Assembly (NCBI GenBank): GCA_001557505.1
Contig: LSAX01000002.1
Span: 4,774,001 to 4,838,000 of the forward strand
DNA: 64,000 bases
DNA from: Reticulascus tulasneorum
Taxonomy: Eukaryota > Ascomycota > Sordariomycetes > Glomerellales > Reticulascaceae
Direction: 5' to 3'
Shown here: piece by piece, positions 1 through 57,009 of the stretch
Layout of the letters: the number at the start of each line of letters is the position of its first letter
How positions within the stretch are numbered: position 1 is the stretch's first letter
The notes under the pieces: generated by a model
Told to the model about the DNA's origin: nothing
Databases searched by the model: none
The model's input: only the letters and a program-made list of their open reading frames with translations
Program-made: the position numbers and the translations under genes

Positions 1-267
1 GCAGAAGTTGTAGCGGTTGGAGGGGATGCCGTAGCTGCACTAATATGGGGTGTTCGGAGTCTTGGGTTGGAGGAGATGTATGAAAACTCGCAAGGTGGAT
101 TCTACTCGAGGGAGAACACAGAGACGGAAAATAAAGATAGCATCGGAATAGCCGAGCAGTATTCCGTATGTGGTTGTTACAAGCGATTCGACAGAATCAC
201 ATCAAAGGCTGCCTGCTGGTTGGCGCGGGTTTCCCGCCCGGGTGTCCCCGAGCTTCAGAGTTGCTGA
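1..267 (+). other. Open frame entering from the left edge, unassigned
   Basis: Frame 1 is open from the first base of the window to a TGA at 265-267, giving 88 residues with no family signature I recognise. It could be the 3' end of a gene outside the window or chance. The rest of 268-690 shows only short overlapping frames and nothing I can assign. Confidence 0.2.
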
Positions 268-692
268 TTCAGTAGGTCCGGGAGCAAACAGACCTTGCCC
301 AAGAATATTGATATATGGAGCCAAGAACTGCGAGATACTTATTGGAATCTGCTGCTTTAGACATGCACGATGCCAATTCGGTCACTTCGTCACATAAAGC
401 CCCCAAATTAGGATGGATGGGCGGCAGGCCGACGACAAATCACGAACCTCAAATCTTTGCCGGCATAACGTGTTGGTGATGCCGCTGGTAACTGGGGTTC
501 ACCGCCCAATAGTGACGCTGATAGATGATGCAAGCCATCGGTCCATCACACCTTGTGTTGGTGGACATGTCCGAGCGTCATGTACGGAGAGGAAGGGGAC
601 CTAAGAGGCCAAGAAGCCAGCCTGTAATGGATTCGATCCGATGCTTACATTTTTCAATGCTTTCAGCCAAGCCTATCAGCTCTTCCATCAAA

Positions 693-700
693 CTATATAG
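693..700 (+). promoter_or_regulatory. TATA-like box of the repeat-precursor gene
   Basis: The sequence CTATATAG lies about 100 nt upstream of the ATG at 802, a usual distance for a fungal TATA element with a short leader. It is called by position and motif only. Confidence 0.45.
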
Positions 701-801
701 AGCACAACTACTCCAGCTGCGTTTCCTTTCTTGTAAGTATTGCACACTAGGTACTCAGATATTGAAATCACACTCTACCGAAATAGCCATAAGTACAGAA
801 G

Positions 802-1411
802 ATGAAGAACTTGTCCAAAATTGCCTTTTTGCTGCTGACTGCCGCTACGGCTATCGCGGCGGTGCCAGTCAGTGAGTAGTTCGCCATATTCGCTTGGGCA
901 GCGATGCTTTTGCTCGAGGGAGTTCAGCGAAAACTAACTATCCCAACCAGGTACTCATCCCATGAGTGATGATGTCGCCTTCGGCAGCCATAAGGATGGC
1001 TATGAGGGAGAGACAAAGAGATCCGAATCTTGTAATTCCGAGTTAAGTCTTTCAGATATGAAGTTGTTCTGACTTCGTTAGATACACATACTATGAGTGA
1101 CGACGTCGCCTTCGGCAGCCACAAGGATGGCTATGAGGGGGAGACAAAGAGATCCGAATCTTGTAATTCCGAGTTAAGTCTTTCAGATATGAAGTTGTTC
1201 TGACTTCGTTAGATACACATACTATGAGTGACGACGTCGCCTTCGGCAGCCACAAGGATGGCTATGAGGGGGAGACAAAGAGATCCGAATCTTGTAATTC
1301 CGATTTAAGTCTTTCAGATATGAGTTTGTTCTGACTTCCTTAGATACGCATACTATGAGTGATGACGTCGCCTTCGGCAGCCACAAGGATGGCTATGAGG
1401 GGGAGTCTTAG
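802..1411 (+). CDS. Secreted tandem-repeat peptide precursor (Kex2-processed, RiPP/dikaritin-like candidate)
   Basis: Five exons (802-871, 951-1031, 1082-1162, 1213-1293, 1344-1411) join in one frame to give 126 residues. Residues 1-20 form a signal peptide (MKNLSKIAFLLLTAATAIA). Four repeats of 27 residues follow, each carrying MSDDVAFGSHKDGYEGE. Repeats 1-3 end in ETKR and repeat 4 ends ES-stop. The KR sites are classical Kex2 targets, so processing in the Golgi would release near-identical peptides of about 27 residues, each with one or two Tyr and no Cys. Introns are 79, 50, 50 and 50 nt. All have GT donors and AG acceptors, with CTAAC in the first and CTGAC in the other three. Every repeat exon starts and ends in the same phase, so cassettes can be added or lost without a frame change. 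Known families with this plan are fungal KEP peptides, including the ustiloxin, epichloecyclin and asperipin precursors. The actual product and any cyclisation are unknown. An alternative is an unmodified secreted signalling peptide. Confidence 0.8.
951..1411 (+). repeat. 131-bp exon-plus-intron tandem repeat, four copies
   Basis: Copies start at 951, 1082, 1213 and 1344, an exact 131-bp period. Each full copy is an 81-nt exon plus a 50-nt intron; the last copy ends at the stop codon. The exons of copies 2 and 3 are identical, and the introns at 1032 and 1163 are identical. The intron at 1294 differs at a few bases. The first copy carries CCC where the others carry ACT. This pattern indicates recent segmental duplication of a whole exon-intron unit. 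Confidence 0.95.
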
Positions 1412-6011: not shown

Positions 6012-7687
6012 ATGAAGCTCACAGACTCGAGCCCACTGTTGGCAATGCTGATGCCTATTGTGGCAGCCAGCACCTGCAAGCCGCCAGTGGACTCGCAAAC
6101 ATACCAGGATGGGATTACATCAAACAAGTACGCAATCTGATTTATCTATGCTGGACTTGACGTCGCTAATATGCTCGATAGCCTGATGGCCAATCTCCAG
6201 GCCCTGAATGATATCGCGTACGCCAATGGCGGGAACCGCGCGTTCGGGTATCCAGGCTACGAGGCGTCGGTAGATTGGATCTACGGAGAAATTTCAAAGC
6301 TGAGAGGCTTCAAAACTTGGATCCAAGATTTTCCTGCCCTGTATTATCAGACCGTCTCTACCAGCTTCATTGTCGGCGACGTCTCGTACAATGTCCTTGC
6401 CCCCACATTTTCGCCCAGCACCTCAGAGGAGGGCCTGACTGTAGAGCTTGTACACGGTCCTGCGGGGGAGGCTGGCTGCGCCTACGAGAGCTACGACGGT
6501 CTCGATGTCGCGGGTAAGATTGTGCTCATTGACCGGTTTCGATGCCCGGATGCGACGACCTTTGCTGGTCGAATAAAGCCTGCAGCGGCCGCAGGTGCCG
6601 CGGCTGTCGTAATTTACAACTTCGATGCGACGCACTTGACCGGCGGAACGCTTACCGCTCCAAACCCTAAGGAGTATGTTCCAGCTGGTCTGATTGATCA
6701 ACCTGAGGGATTAGCACTAAAGGCACGACTTGACGCGGGCGAGACCATCGAGGCCTACTTCCAGTTGACCCAGATCATCGAGGAAAGGATCACCCAAAAC
6801 GTATTTGCCGAAACCAAGGGAGGCGATGCCGCAAATGTCGTCATGGTATGCCATCCTTCCATGGCCTAGCACTTGCATCGATAGCTAACCAGTACATCTT
6901 CAGCTCGGTGCTCATCTAGACTCTGTCCCAGCCGGGCCTGGAATCAACGACGATGGCTCTGGCACGTCGTTAATTCTCGAATTAACCAAGGGTCTCTCCC
7001 ACTTCTCCACTAAGAACAAGGTGCGCTTCGCCTGGTGGGGCGCTGAGGAGAACGGGAAGCTTGGGTCTCTGTGGTATTGTAGGAACCTCACAGCCGAGGA
7101 GGGCGACAACATCCTTGCGTATCTCAACTTTGATATGGTGGCCAAAGGCTACTTCGGCGTCTTTGATGGTGATGGAAGCACCCATGGTCTAGCGGCGCCT
7201 CCTGGGTCCGGCGTCATCGAGAAGATCTTTGTTGAGGATATGGTTTCCAAAGGCGTCAACGTCACGCCGGCCGTCTTCACGAATGGTTCGGACTACGCTT
7301 CATTCTGGCAGGTACTCTCGACTCCTATCGGTGGACTGCACACTGGAACTGGTGTTGCCCAGGACCCGTGCTAGTAGGTCTCTCCGCTCCAGACTCTATT
7401 CGTGGTTCAGGGTCGAATCCAAACCTCGATATATAATACTAACGTTGGATTGTCTCAGCCACCAAGCATGCGATAATATTACCAACCCTGTGCCGGAGAC
7501 GATCACTGTAAATGCCAAGGCCGCTGCTCACGTCCTGTCCGTCCTCGCCACAGATGGCGTCGACCTGCTTCCCAAGACTGCCCGTCTCGGTAGAATTAGG
7601 AGAGACCCTAGCCCGGCTATTCTTGACTACTCGGCGTTTGAGGCGATGGGCGAGAGGCACTTGCCGGGCTGTAGCCATGAGATTTAG
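6012..7687 (+). CDS. Secreted M28 zinc aminopeptidase with PA domain
   Basis: Exons 6012-6127, 6182-6845, 6904-7373 and 7459-7687 give 492 residues. A hydrophobic N-terminus (LLAMLMPIVAAS) indicates secretion. A PA insert follows at about residues 110-230, then the M28 catalytic part. Zinc ligands expected for the family are all visible: His264 in GAHLDS, Asp276 in INDDGSG, Glu308/309 in WWGAEE, Asp337 in NFDM, and His418 in CYHQACD. The family removes N-terminal residues from peptides using two zinc ions. The loop between GGLHTG and DPCYH is only a few residues, whereas related fungal enzymes usually carry about twenty more (GIKT...FGGTAG type). That loop lies near the active site, so specificity may differ. 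Introns are 54, 58 and 85 nt with good branch sites. Confidence 0.88.
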
Positions 7688-9485: not shown

Positions 9486-11769
9486 CTATTGCACATTGTC
9501 GAACTTATAAGCATTCATATTGATAGCCAAATAGGGCACGAATGCCGAAGAGTCGAGGTCCAACCAGTTTGTGGTCTTCCATTCATCTAGAACGGTAGGA
9601 ATAAAGCCACCTGGGTTCGTGTCCTCGGGCAGTTCATACTCCATCGACGACGAGTTTGAGCCATACGCAAAAGTGTTGGAACTTGCGTCAGTCATCCGAG
9701 GGTCCACCGGCACGATATTTCGATTGCCTTCTTTTAATGAGGGATTTTTTGCCGTGGTCGTCATCTGGCCCAATGATTCTTTACGAAATTCTTCAAGAAT
9801 GACAGCATACCGCCGGCTCGGAGAGTTTGTCGCTGTCGCCGTTGCGAGGTGGGTCTGGCACTTCTCGGCCAGCTCGATCAGCTTCGATGAATTGCCGCTT
9901 CCATACAAACCAACAAATCCACCTCTGCGCTTCAGTTGTACCTCCGAGAAGTACACAACGAGAACAGCACAGAATGTCACATACTGAGTCCACCAGAAAG
10001 CTTGGAAAGTGGGACCGTCCCGAGCTAGGCTATCAGCGATTTCAAGCACCGCTTTGGCTGCGCTTATGGACTCGTTGGCTTGAGCCTCGCTCCTTATGTT
10101 GGGCTGATCGAGCAGAAATATTCGGTTTGCGTGCATTATGGCATGGGAGTATGCAAGCTTTAGCACTGTAGCCTGACGGCGGAAGCTAGGAATAAGACTC
10201 GATGGCCGAATAGATCCAAGATGGGGAGGTAAACTGGCCCGCCATTCGTGGAGCTTGGCTCCGAACTTGTGGGCGGCTGCAACTCTTTCTTGTTCGGAAA
10301 TAGGCTTGATAGAGTAAACTTCGCGAGCTAGAGATACAGTGATCTGAGCGATCCTGGCATTCTGTCAATTTAGCTATCACGATTGCAGTGACTTGAACCC
10401 ACTTGGCATGAAAAATCAGAGCATCAACGTGACAATCATCGCCAGTCTCGTCCTCAACTCGATCTAGCGGCCCTTGCGCCGTCATGTCATCATCTTTGAC
10501 CCTGTCTGGAAAATCTTGGTCAATATCTTCATCGTGCAAGTGCTTCATGCGCCCCAAACTGATGCCCAGGTACTTGTCAAGAATGTATGCCGTCCAAAAG
10601 GTTCGTATTCGGCTTTGTGACTCTATGTAGTCAATGGCTACCGCCGGCTGTCTCTTCCGATCTGCTCTGCGGTGCAGCCCAAGGGCGGATATAATCCGAA
10701 GCGCATTCCCGAACACGTACCATGCACGATTCATGCGGGATGTTGTTAGAAGATACAGAACCTGAATGATACGCGCCTGAGCGGATTCCAACACCGGAAA
10801 GCCGGTTTCCGTGTCAGTTAGTCGAATAGCCACGCAAAAAAGCTCTTCGCTGCTGCTCACAGAAGTCGATTCCTCTTCTGAGTCGTGGAAGCCATTCGAT
10901 TTCACATGATGTGCCGTTGCAATTGCTAGTGCGACAAGGACGATGGCTGCCCGTGCACGTCCAAGCTCATGCCAGAATGGACGCCCTTCCAAGAGATTGA
11001 CCTCGAGAGTTCCGCACCATTCCTCCATTGCAGGCCTGTGGAGGAAGCGGTATGTGGAGATGCACACATCAAAATAGAGTGCCAGCAGCTGCCGCACTTT
11101 GCTTGGCTTTGGGAGCATCACATTTCTGATATCATCACTAAAGTGAGGCAGTGGTTTATCCCCAGCAAACATTAACAGTTGGTCGGTAGTGGACTCGTGT
11201 GCCTCGTCTAAGACATTGCTGCTTTGGTATTTGGACAATCGTCTCCAGGCACGATCTAGGAAGAAGATGGGGGCAGTAGGTTCGAATACATGATCGCGTA
11301 TCTCAGGCATCCTCGGGCCGGTCGACGTGCTTGGGTCAGTCTGATTCTCTTGGACTGGGCTCGCAGTTTCGTATTCCTGATTGAGATCTCTGCTGGGTTG
11401 AGCAGGGGTTTGGATGGTATTGGTTGCCATCGCGCCGTATGATGCTGACGGGGGAGGGGTTGGGGGCCGGCCTCTCGAGTAAGTTGCATTGTATACGCAA
11501 GCCAAACCCTTCCGGCCACACTTATCACATGGTATGGTGCCGCTGCATTTTGCCTTCCTCGACTTACAGAGGTCGCAGGCTCGGCTAACCTTGTGTGCTT
11601 TTCGTCCATTACCACTAAAACCGAAGCTTGTATCGGGAGAAGACTGGGTCATTAATCCGAAGCTGCGCTTGGGCGGATCTCTCGGACTTGCAACCCAGGG
11701 TAACATCTGCTGGATGGCTGGGTTGGTAGCTCGTGGGCTGATTGATGAGTGGGGCAGCGAAACATCCAT
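9486..11769 (-). CDS. Zn2Cys6 transcription factor with fungal_trans domain
   Basis: Exons 11769-10403 and 10353-9486 (49-nt intron) give 744 residues. The binuclear zinc cluster is Cys65-x2-Cys68-x6-Cys75-x5-Cys81-x2-Cys84-x6-Cys91, followed by a Pro-rich linker. The middle region carries the fungal-specific regulatory domain (PF04082 type), including ALYFDVCISTYRFLHRP and GLHRRADRKR. After the splice the frame continues IAQITVSLAREVYS and KLAYSHAIMHANRIFLLDQ, both typical of the domain's C-terminal helices. Without the splice the first exon reads on to a stop at 10186-10188. The protein acts in the nucleus as a pathway regulator. Its target is unknown; the DAL5-type transporter gene upstream (12784-14547) is one candidate by position only. 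Confidence 0.88.
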
Positions 11770-12783
11770 TCTTGACTGGCCACCTCCACCTAGGCAGCTA
11801 GACAGACCTTCGCACGAGGCGGAAAAGTAGACGGAAAAGGGACACGAGATGCCCGGGTTGGATTATGATGGTGTCGAAAGGAAGGGTAATGGAAGCTCAA
11901 TGCGGGGGTCATCTCGCTTGTGGGGGGGAAGTATGGCCTAACCACCAGATACGAGTCATGACAAGATTCAGGGCTTTTGCCAGCCACTATTTTGGGGTTT
12001 GACAGCCAGAATACACAAGCCCGAAAATATCAAAAGCCATCATTTTCCGTTTTGGGAACTGAGGTGGTGCCGCCTTAAGCTGAGCACCCACTGAGCGCTG
12101 ACTAAGCAAATCGGACCATAATTAGCAGGGCTAAGCCACCACTGAGCAGCCAACCGAAGCACGGGCGGAGTCTACCCGGACGACCCACTGCTTTCAGCGT
12201 CATGTCCTCGCAACACCCAAGCCCTGACAAGTCTGTTGCTGGTTCAGCCTTGCATAGAAAGATACACCAATTGAACTCCAAGGCCCGGGAACAGATCGCC
12301 TGCTACACACTACATACGTATAACTTACGTACTTACACCTGTTTATTTGGAGCTGGGTTTCCTTACTTCAGCTCAGCCGCGAGCGACAACCAACAACGAA
12401 ACAGGGACGGCAATGCATGGTATGATATCGCAAACATGCTAGCTGCGAACTCCCCAGGGACGAGGATTAGGTAGTCATCGCTTTGGACATAATTAATAAG
12501 ATAAAGGCCGGGATGGTTCGTGCATGAGTGTTTTGGATTCAGACAGACCACCTGCCTGCTTGCCTAAACTACGTATGTAGAGAGCAATTTGATACCATGC
12601 TTGGTCCACTGTCTCTCAAGGCTGCCTAAAGCAGAAACGTGTTGAAGTCTATAACATTGAACTTGATTTATAGTTTCTCTAAAATGTATAAAATCCGAAA
12701 ACTTGTTCAAGGCCGCCCACCAGGTATACTGCATGGTTCTGTTTAACCAAACTGAGAATGATCTACCGGTAGCACTACTAGAT
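11770..12783. other. Upstream region of the Zn2Cys6 regulator
   Basis: This 1-kb stretch separates two minus-strand genes and should hold the regulator's promoter. The scattered frames at 12202-12551 have no recognisable product. Confidence 0.45.
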
Positions 12784-14547
12784 TTAGTAGACATATTCAA
12801 AGTTTGGGTTCTCCTTATCCGTCATATCTGTGAAGGCCGTAGCGTTATCGCTGTTGATATCTGGCAGCTGCCCGTTAGCCCTCATTTCTGCCCGCCGTCG
12901 CTCCTTGAGCTTGTTTTCACGCTTGAAGGCGAAGCGGAGGACAAAAAACAGGCCGAGTTCGAGGAAGTTGGCAACTAGCAGCGACCCAATTCCGAGTGGA
13001 TATTTCGGTGCCTGCTCCGTTCTGTAGAAGAACGGGGAGGCAATGTTGCCTATGCATGCTCCGAACCAAATCATTCCCGAAACAATCATCTTCTTGGATT
13101 GTCCACCCGTGTTGGATGTAATGAGCGACAAGCTAAGAACGAAGGAGGCTTGGTACGACCCGGTGAGGTAGCTGGCAGTTGTCAGTGCGAGTCTCTGATA
13201 AATGGACATTCAGCTTACAAGCAGATCAGCCGGCCGACATATGCGTCCGTCGGAGCCAACAGGAAGCCGAGCGCGCCGGCAATGGTTGGGAGCATGAACA
13301 TGGCGCAAATGATAGTGCGACTGTTCTTTGGCATATATTGGTTGCAGACGGCACCCAATCCGATCCAAATCACAACTATAACTCCTTGGGGGATTCCAAG
13401 CAGAGCTGTATTCAAGGTATTGAAACCGAGCCCTCTGATGACAAGGGTCGAGAAGTTCGAGATGCCTCCATTGGGAATGTTGCCAACAAAACCAAGGAAG
13501 GTGAAAAGCCAAGTCTTGTAGTCCATATAGGCCTCTTTGATCTGTGCCCAGTTAATGCTTCGCTGTTCGATTCCGGTCTGGTTCTTCCTCAGGCGAGCGA
13601 TCATCAACAATTTCTCGTCATGAGAGAATCCCCGAAAGGTGACGGGCGAGTTGGGCAACAGAAGGCATAAAATGATGGCCCAGAACGAGCAGAAGGCTCC
13701 CACGACGAGAAACTCGTATCTCCAAGATTGTAGAGCGCCATCTATGTTTCCGATACCATAGCCTACGAAGGGTCAGCGGCGTTTGCAGTGTGCAGGACTC
13801 GGAACTTACCAATCAGTCCGCCTCCAGCCACTCCGACACCATTCCATACATACCATGCTGCGATGCGTGAGGGCTGCTCTGCTCTCGTGTAGTACATCGA
13901 CGTTATCAGCATGAATGCAGGATCGGCGATGGCTTCGAAAGCTCCCGACAATATTCTGAGTGCAGCTAGGGCACCAAAGTTATTGGCACCCGCCTGGGCC
14001 ATCAACAAAGCTCCCCACATGAAAATGTTGAATGATAGATAATAGCCTGGTGGACACTTCTGCATAATCAGGTTCGACGGAATAGCCCATACGAGCCAGC
14101 CAAAGTAAAAGAGAGATGAAAGCCACGAGTATTCGTCGCCTTTCAAGGGAAGATCCTCTCTAATTCCGAAAATCGCTGCATATGATAGAGTCGTCTTGTC
14201 GACATACTGTAAGTTGCGGCATGCATGTCAGATACTGTCTTTCATTCCGCCCGGTTATGATGATAATGATGGGTGCTTACGTAAAAGAAGTAGCATATTC
14301 CTAGCAGAGGGAGGATGCGTCGGTCAAGCTTGCGTTTCAGCCTCTTTTCGTCAGCCTGGTCAATGGACTCATCGTTGGGATATCTGGCGAGAGCTTCTGC
14401 GTAAATCTCGTTATTTGGCTGATTGATGTTGTGCCTAAGCTCGTCTACAGCCTTCGAGTTGGTCCTATCTTCGAAAATGCTCCCATTCTCAGCGTCGGGC
14501 TGGGCTGCGTCATGTTCTGGACTTTTTTCGTTTGAAAGAGAAGCCAT
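12784..14547 (-). CDS. MFS transporter, DAL5/allantoate permease type (anion:cation symporter)
   Basis: Exons 14547-14281, 14206-13810, 13762-13219 and 13171-12784 give 531 residues. After an 80-residue hydrophilic N-terminus the first membrane span begins at RRILPLLGICYFFYYVDKTTLS, with the D-K-T-T-L-S motif of this family. Later landmarks are SLFYFGWLVWAIPSNLIMQK, the RILSGAFEAIADPAFMLI segment and GRLICFYLTGSYQ-SLITSNTGGQSKK, which reads correctly only across intron 3 (13218-13172). About 12 spans are expected. The family imports allantoate, nicotinate, vitamins and related organic anions across the plasma membrane by proton symport; the substrate here cannot be told. Introns are 74, 47 and 47 nt. 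Confidence 0.88.
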
Positions 14548-55810: not shown

Positions 55811-57009
55811 ATGCGGAGCCTTCTCGTGGCCGGTTGCGCAATAGCGCTGGCAAGCATTGGTGAGTATTCTGTAAGCCATCGTGATACAAATCTTTAACAT
55901 TCCATCCAGCTTCCGCGCAATGTACGTGCCCTTGTGAGACGACTCCAGAAGACCCGACCCCCGAAGTGCCACCAGAAGAAGACCCATGCCTTGGACCCGA
56001 GCCGAAACCGTGGTTCTGTGTCGGCGAACCGACTGGCGAGCCTGTCCCGGACCCGTGCGAGCTGCCCGACGGCGACCCTGGGAAGCCATGGTACTGCGTC
56101 GGCGAACCTAGCGGCGAACCTGTCCCCGACCCGTGCGACTTGCCTGATGGCGACCCCGGAAAGCCATGGTACTGCACTATTCCTACAGGTAATCCAGAAG
56201 GCGAAGCGCCGTTGTTTGAAGTGTACGTCGACGACATGACTGGGTTTACCTTTGCACAGTTCAGTGCAAAATATTATATAGACGATCGGGCAATCAAAAT
56301 TCGCATCGCCAACCCCCCCAGTACCGCTGAAGATGGATCGTGGGATACTGTCCTCCAGATGATTGCGCCGAACGAAGTGGGATGGGCTGCAATTGCGTGG
56401 GGAGGCGCCATGACAGGCAATCCTCTCACTGTTGGCTGGGCAAACTGTAGCAATGTGGTTGTGTCGTCTCGTTGGTCAGAGTAAGTATCTGGCGCAAGAA
56501 TGAGGTTGCTTTGACGCCTACTAATAACTGCTAGTGTCCGTGTCCAGCCTGAGGCCTACGCAGGCGCCACCTACGAAACGATTGAAGCTGGCACTTTTAT
56601 AAACGGGACGCACTGGCAGTTCACCTCGAAGTGCACGGGATGTACATCCTGGACTGACATTCGCGGAGTCCATACCTCTCTCGACCCGGCGGGCACGCAT
56701 CCTCTGGCCTGGGCGATGGCAGACTTCGTGCCTACCAATCCCGCATCCAATACCTCGACCTTCATGTACCACGATGTCCACGGAAACTGGGATCATGACT
56801 TCTCGGTTGGCTCGAATGCAGAGTTTGCTTCTATTCTATCGGCGGTGACGACTGTTGCCGGGGCACCTACACCGACGGCGGCGGGAGAATGTCTCTACAC
56901 GCAACCACCACCAGACGACGGAAAGGTTACTGTGACGGTGACGGCTACGGTCACCGAGGCTGCTGTCACTGTGACCGAGACAGCCACTCTAACTGCAGCC
57001 TGCAGCTAG
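55811..57009 (+). CDS. Secreted AA8-type cytochrome (CDH heme domain) with N-terminal Cys/Pro repeats
   Basis: Exons 55811-55859, 55910-56480 and 56535-57009 give 364 residues. A signal peptide (MRSLLVAGCAIALASIGASA) is completed across intron 1. Residues about 21-120 are Pro/Asp/Cys-rich with repeats (see the repeat entry). From about residue 130 the sequence matches the cytochrome domain of cellobiose dehydrogenase: MIAPNEVGWAAIAWGGAMTG with a Met in the position of the axial heme ligand, later CTGCTSW, and STFMYHDVHGNWDHDF, where a His of the other axial ligand is plausible. There is no flavin domain. Stand-alone AA8 proteins may pass electrons to copper oxygenases in the secretome. The C-terminus is Val/Thr-rich and likely O-glycosylated. 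Confidence 0.8.
56020..56175 (+). repeat. 78-bp in-frame tandem repeat, two units
   Basis: Units 56020-56097 and 56098-56175 each encode VGEPxGEPVPDPCxLP plus DGDPGKPWYC. They differ at several third positions, so the duplication is not very recent. A further partial copy (PCLGPEPKPWFC) precedes them. Confidence 0.85.

Follow-up and report, generated by a model that had tools for sequence, protein, structure and literature searches.

Does the short repeat gene at the left end of the window encode a secreted peptide precursor, and to which known kind of system would such a precursor belong? The window is the whole 64-kb stretch of Reticulascus tulasneorum DNA analyzed here (C2:4774001-4838000 of a 42.8-Mb genome in 35 contigs). 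A first-pass annotation had proposed that positions 802-1411 encode a Kex2-processed peptide or RiPP. Our analysis supports the gene as a RiPP candidate, through an UstYa neighbour and a core shared with a homologue. The reported repeat arrangement is confirmed in the sequence, its splicing and product are predicted, and its unusual architecture recurs in the same genome. We consider it highly probable that the precursor is a KEP for a dikaritin-type RiPP whose core would be modified by one UstYa oxidase, an asperipin-like minimal make-up.

Gene structure of the repeat precursor

As the first-pass annotation had claimed for its exon cassettes, a five-exon model on the plus strand reads through 802-1411, and the starts of the four cassettes are exactly 131 bp apart. 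Exon 1 (802..871) encodes the predicted signal peptide MKNLSKIAFLLLTAATAIAAVPV and supplies the first base of the next codon. Exon 2 (951..1031) is unit 1, THPMSDDVAFGSHKDGYEGETKR followed by SES, and exon 3 (1082..1162) is unit 2, YTHTMSDDVAFGSHKDGYEGETKR followed by SES. Exon 4 (1213..1293) is unit 3 and has the same letters as exon 3, and exon 5 (1344..1411) encodes the final unit YTHTMSDDVAFGSHKDGYEGES and the stop codon. The exons of 70, 81, 81, 81 and 68 nt join into a spliced frame of 381 nt, which encodes 126 amino acids with a single terminal stop. Intron 1 (872..950) is 79 nt long; introns 2 (1032..1081), 3 (1163..1212) and 4 (1294..1343) are each 50 nt long. Intron 2 contains a CTGAC branch-like site, intron 3 has the same letters, and intron 4 differs from intron 2 at 4 positions. 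All four introns have GT..AG ends and, as calculated from the exon lengths, all are in phase 1. Therefore, the cassette exons are symmetric. Computed retention of each intron brings in an in-frame stop (4/4). The donor of introns 2-4, GTAATT, is not of the strongest type, which we count against the model. An alternative in-frame donor seen by eye 15 nt downstream in introns 2-4 would only lengthen the spacer and leave the core untouched. Tandem Repeats Finder reports this array with a period of 131, 3.4 copies, 96% matches and a score of 818, the top of its 6 rows for the window.

The product begins with a hydrophobic leader, continues with four units that each contain the core GYEGE, and has KR at three sites. 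A hydropathy peak of 2.23 over 11 residues in the leader, together with inspection, supports the signal peptide proposed earlier. The cassettes had also been described as four identical ones with KR sites, each repeat in its own 81-nt exon. This description needs correction: identity at the DNA level is limited to units 2 and 3, the Y and T of the other units are replaced by S and P in unit 1, and unit 4 has a shorter exon (68 nt), ends in ES-stop and has no KR. The 81-nt length holds for units 1-3. No Pfam family matched the precursor up to E 0.1, and the Rfam and tRNA scans of the 64-kb window returned 0 and 0.

Conservation of the core

We compared the codons of the 17-codon core block MSDDVAFGSHKDGYEGE among the four copies. 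Four codon columns are variable, and all four changes are synonymous; outside the block, two residues differ (S/Y and P/T). Under a single-base-change model, the probability that all core changes are synonymous is 0.0008-0.005, depending on the transition bias, a value to be read with the non-independence of the copies and the choice of the test after the data had been seen. The synonymous-only changes are supportive of, and not proof of, selection on the core. In a search of the genome itself, the core occurs in 4 copies only, and the 5 matching stretches all lie inside the precursor gene.

A search of a 5.77 billion-protein database (2713 candidates) gave a sole protein at E <= 10, the 84-aa P0001 (E 8.7e-13). 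P0001 contains three units of SVGLDVAFGSHK[N/D]GYEGE, which are followed by NKR, NKG and A-stop, respectively. Across the block DVAFGSHK[D/N]GYEGE, 13 or 14 of the 14 positions are identical between the two proteins; the spacers are unlike (SESYTHTMSD in the precursor versus SVGL in P0001). The tyrosine of GYEGE is present in all four units of the precursor and in all three units of P0001. The first-pass annotation had named homologues with unconserved repeats and KR sites as evidence against its proposal. The core is kept in every unit of P0001, and its internal sites are divided, one of two being KR and the other KG. We count this KG site against our interpretation, together with the annotated start of P0001, which has no visible signal peptide, and the recovery of a single homologue across all protein searches. 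Of two further protein searches, with a shorter and a longer precursor query, one yielded no candidate, and in the other none of 7992 scored candidates reached E <= 10. Pattern scans for the precursor in contigs from prokaryote genomes and from viruses gave 17 and 2 matches, none of which was confirmed, as expected for a fungal gene.

An UstYa gene adjoins the precursor gene

A PF11807 search of the genome gave 33 matching stretches, which we grouped by hand into 21 UstYa loci. One of them (C2:4773053-4773849) lies directly left of the window. The gene model at this locus runs on the minus strand from C2:4773945 down to 4772961 (L006:9945-8961), with exons at L006 9945-9735, 9683-9279, 9219-9050 and 8999-8961, and encodes 274 amino acids. 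The protein matches the UstYa (DUF3328) profile with 146.6 bits (cut-off 25; profile 11-220/220) and contains both HXXHC motifs, HQLHC and HIAHC. By eye, it has a single N-terminal hydrophobic segment. A solved-structure search with this protein gave 0 matches up to E 1. Just downstream of its stop codon, we observed a 62-bp tandem duplication (L006:8759-8884).

The UstYa and precursor genes are divergent, immediate neighbours with 856 bp between them and start codons 857 bp apart. The chance that an UstYa start lies within 857 bp of a random position is about 0.0009 when 22 genes are assumed. Positions 1..801 of the window make up most of the intergenic region and are probably a shared promoter region.

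The first-pass annotation had suggested looking to the left for DUF3328, tyrosinase and peptidase genes. The full-length UstYa gene answers the first of these. None of the 20 tyrosinase matches in the genome is on contig C2, which weighs against our reading, and among the frames tested, Pfam recognized no peptidase within 10 kb on the left side. Pfam on chosen frames identified two genes on the left, a carboxylesterase and a GH47. On the right are a HET-domain stretch, a PA/M28 peptidase (6141-7374), a Zn2Cys6 factor (10186-11862) and MFS stretches (13215-14227), and farther right a sugar transporter and MIOX, and then a P450, another MFS and a GMC oxidoreductase. The HET-domain, Zn2Cys6 and UstYa-family genes are in keeping with a fungal genome, most likely that of a filamentous ascomycete. 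We do not claim neighbours such as the carboxylesterase or the PA/M28 peptidase as cluster members. The evidence for a cluster is limited to the precursor and UstYa genes, and this too counts against our reading. Two minor features were observed in the surroundings. The stretch 40-50 kb left of the precursor gene (C2:4724001-4734000) contains many short A+T-rich tandem repeats and is perhaps a decayed repeat island. At 56004-56175 (+) of the window, a 78-bp repeat of 2.2 copies encodes KPW[F/Y]CVGEPxGEPVPDPC units that open a longer frame.

Proposed pathway and alternative explanations

The dikaritin-type reading is based on the UstYa neighbour, the stops on intron retention, the core of P0001, the synonymous core changes and dibasic arrays at five other UstYa loci (see below). 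What can be read from the sequence itself is the leader with four units, the three KR sites, the UstYa neighbour and the shared block. In the parts of the literature available to us, KEPs are described as entering the ER by a signal peptide and being cleaved by Kex2 and Kex1 in the Golgi, and oxidative ring closure at tyrosine as requiring DUF3328 proteins (PMC7329392, PMC6514808, PMC12048977, PMC9769878). By analogy, the precursor protein would enter the ER, Kex2 would cut after each KR, and Kex1 would strip the basic residues, leaving peptides of about 21-25 residues. Kex2 cleavage is a prediction, and the genome has one kexin-type locus, on C17, identified by two P-domain matches. The membrane-anchored UstYa oxidase would then cross-link the core via the tyrosine of GYEGE, peptidases would trim the variable N-terminal spacer part of the units, and a cyclic peptide would be secreted as the end product. 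Cyclization itself is a prediction, and the gene probably specifies a secreted peptide, possibly cyclic, that has yet to be isolated. The computed [M+2H]2+ values of the linear peptides are 1375.5616 for SESYTHTMSDDVAFGSHKDGYEGET, 1140.4791 for THPMSDDVAFGSHKDGYEGET, 1368.5537 for SESYTHTMSDDVAFGSHKDGYEGES and 755.8259 for DVAFGSHKDGYEGE, and one cross-link would lower each of these values by about 1.008.

The ustiloxin and asperipin-2a cores are four and six residues long, as given in passages of PMC6514808. At 14 residues, the conserved block exceeds the known cores in length, which we count against our reading; therefore, either the product would use the block partially or the product would be larger. 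In an alternative reading, the gene is a KEP whose secreted peptide stays linear and unmodified and acts in signalling or as an effector, and the UstYa neighbour belongs to another pathway or has no role. The length of the block, long for a ring product, speaks for this alternative. According to the passages available, 6120 of 7878 KEPs lack a DUF3328 gene in a range of 15 genes (PMC7329392), and agaricomycetes have yielded linear KEP peptides (PMC9769878). However, the UstYa gene here, which encodes both HXXHC motifs, lies directly beside the precursor gene in divergent orientation, and the core tyrosine is kept in every unit of the precursor and P0001. In the same survey, DUF3328 genes are commonest right beside KEP genes, and 65.6% of the repeats in the 1758 KEPs with a DUF3328 gene within 15 genes contain tyrosine (PMC7329392, in part). 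We therefore regard a linear product as unlikely, although it is the most serious of the alternatives.

We also rejected, as very improbable, the reading of the array as a chance repeat or as a decayed, unexpressed gene. Tandem arrays are common and the transcript is a prediction, but the spliced frame is open with all splice sites present, the core changes are synonymous only, the core is conserved in P0001 and an open UstYa gene adjoins. The weakest candidate, an alpha-type mating pheromone precursor, has the same layout of a signal peptide and Kex2-spaced repeats and is rejected as barely conceivable because the product has no Trp or Cys, SES rather than the XA/XP dipeptides of the STE13 signature comes after KR, no Pfam family is matched, and DUF3328 genes almost never accompany pheromone KEPs in the passages of PMC7329392 available.

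Comparison with known systems

For a dikaritin-type KEP, the comparison with described systems is as follows. KEPs are defined by a predicted N-terminal ER signal peptide and at least three repeats at KR, RR or KK; the precursor has such a signal peptide, four units and three KR sites. Dikaritin loci have a DUF3328/UstYa gene near the precursor, two HXXHC motifs in the DUF3328 protein (as described in part of PMC12048977) and a tyrosine in the repeated core, and all of these are found here. The testable defining features of KEPs and dikaritin loci are thus present, and those specific to ustiloxin and phomopsin are absent.

The asperipin-2a pathway (aprA and aprY), a dikaritin system, is closest in plan, with one precursor and one DUF3328 oxidase. 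The shared features are the signal peptide, the Kex2-spaced repeats and the single DUF3328 oxidase; the pathway has four genes, one of them for DUF3328, and no tyrosinase, and none is on C2 here (PMC7329392 and PMC6514808, both in part). The asperipin-2a core is FYYTGY (passages of PMC6514808), whereas that of the precursor is DVAFGSHKDGYEGE. Moreover, the asperipin-2a cluster has a transporter and a reductase, counterparts of which were not identified at this locus.

The precursor also resembles UstA and PhomA, the precursors of ustiloxin and phomopsin, in its signal peptide, KR-spaced cores and DUF3328 gene. A further similarity is that UstA has an acidic ED and KR after its cores (PMC6514808, in part) where the precursor has GE-T-KR. 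However, the UstA/PhomA cores are YAIG, YVIG or YVIP (passages of PMC7329392 and PMC6514808), none of which occurs in the product. The number of DUF3328 genes is two or five in the ustiloxin and phomopsin clusters, which also contain a tyrosinase (PMC7329392, in part), whereas the locus here has a single DUF3328 gene and its contig has no tyrosinase match. We rejected membership of the ustiloxin/phomopsin group on the missing tyrosinase and the different core. A further system to compare is epichloecyclin. The repeats of its precursor, GigA, are 27 residues long. Like the precursor, GigA has a signal sequence, four repeats with KR sites and one clustered UstYa-like gene (PMC6514808 and PMC8982410, in part).

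The statement that the core matches no named product agrees with our search: none of the papers in the literature searched contains any of six strings taken from the core and its variant. The precursor type may be listed among the 838 types in the supplements of Umemura 2020, which lie outside this literature check. With one precursor and one oxidase, the locus is a compact candidate for making a new fungal cyclic peptide, and its conserved core is unusually long. It could help to establish what one UstYa enzyme can do in a setting without a clustered tyrosinase.

Repeat arrays at other UstYa loci and a second cassette gene

We scanned 20 of the 21 UstYa loci and 11 background tiles for dibasic-anchored repeats in any frame. 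Fifteen loci were scanned as 8-kb stretches and five, the precursor locus among them, as stretches of about 3-3.6 kb; the tiles comprised seven 8-kb stretches of the window and four 10-kb stretches of the left flank. Six of the 20 loci, including the precursor locus, contained arrays, versus 0 of the 11 tiles. At the other 14 loci the scan found no dibasic array, a point against our reading, and therefore the presence of a KEP does not follow from that of an UstYa gene.

Two of the six arrays, with unrelated cores, have one unit per exon: the precursor gene and a gene at L048:1752-2311 (+), on C35:965001-973000. The L048 gene model has an 88-nt leader exon and cassettes of 54, 54, 51 and 44 nt, separated by phase-1 introns of 63, 71, 73 and 62 nt. 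The product consists of the leader MKFFSIISIACLVALGAAAPVAGDNAAVA and the units DKRYLQYKTAPGIPPPPK with a KR site per unit, and an UstYa match starts about 1.6 kb downstream of the gene. The third cassette has a different donor, and thus the L048 model is less certain. Acceptor-like, cassette-like sites are also present beyond the stop, at L048:2369 and 2472. The two genes are alike in their leader exon followed by four cassette exons, phase-1 introns, KR per unit and a nearby UstYa gene. In contrast, the L048 core YLQYKTAPGIPPPP is unrelated to that of the window precursor, and the L048 exons open with the KR site whereas the window precursor exons end just after KR.

The contiguous-frame scan did not report the window precursor gene. 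The scan anchored upstream of the dibasic site did not report the L048 gene, which only a DNA repeat finder showed. Because each scan missed a cassette gene, genome mining in unspliced frames can miss such genes. In the main texts, intron, exon or splic occurs 0 times in Umemura 2020, and intron or exon 0 times in Le Marquer 2019. In the passages of PMC9769878 available, introns are mentioned once, in the cloning of KEP genes from cDNA. The one-core-per-exon plan is undescribed in the literature passages on DUF3328 and introns, a scope that has the original gigA and Aspergillus survey papers and the supplements outside it; that the architecture is unreported before is not established.

We tentatively propose, as a possibility that we hold at less than even chance, that UstYa-dependent RiPP precursors repeatedly adopt a gene plan with one core per exon, in which a leader exon precedes symmetric phase-1 cassettes carrying one Kex2 site each. 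On this view, the plan, seen in a single genome with two cores that are unrelated, probably had more than one origin. With one core per symmetric phase-1 exon, the copy number can change by duplication, loss or skipping of whole exons without a frameshift. If the proposal is true, whole exons could be the units in which cores are duplicated, lost, skipped or exchanged, and splicing could set which cores, and how many, a precursor carries. With two such genes in a single genome, it becomes possible to test whether exon duplication and splicing serve fungi to diversify peptides of this kind.

The arrays at the remaining four loci are in-frame and unsplit by introns, with periods of 75 bp (L041), 54-111 bp (L043), 69-105 bp (L045) and 42 bp (L049). 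At L043:5440-5804 (+), on C34:2243001-2251000, intron-free Kex2-spaced repeats AEAYGPPLNPHIVTKDKR lie beside an UstYa gene. Near the UstYa genes of the other three loci, we observed 25-residue repeats EALYKGDGLYVLRTLAKK at L041:6617-6908 (+), on C32:2614001-2622000, di-histidine motif repeats ETREPHHKGKKTKKNKR at L045:924-1539 (-), on C35:1170001-1178000, and short 14-residue repeats AETSADESYLPMKR at L049:1941-2168 (-), on C15:4209501-4217500.
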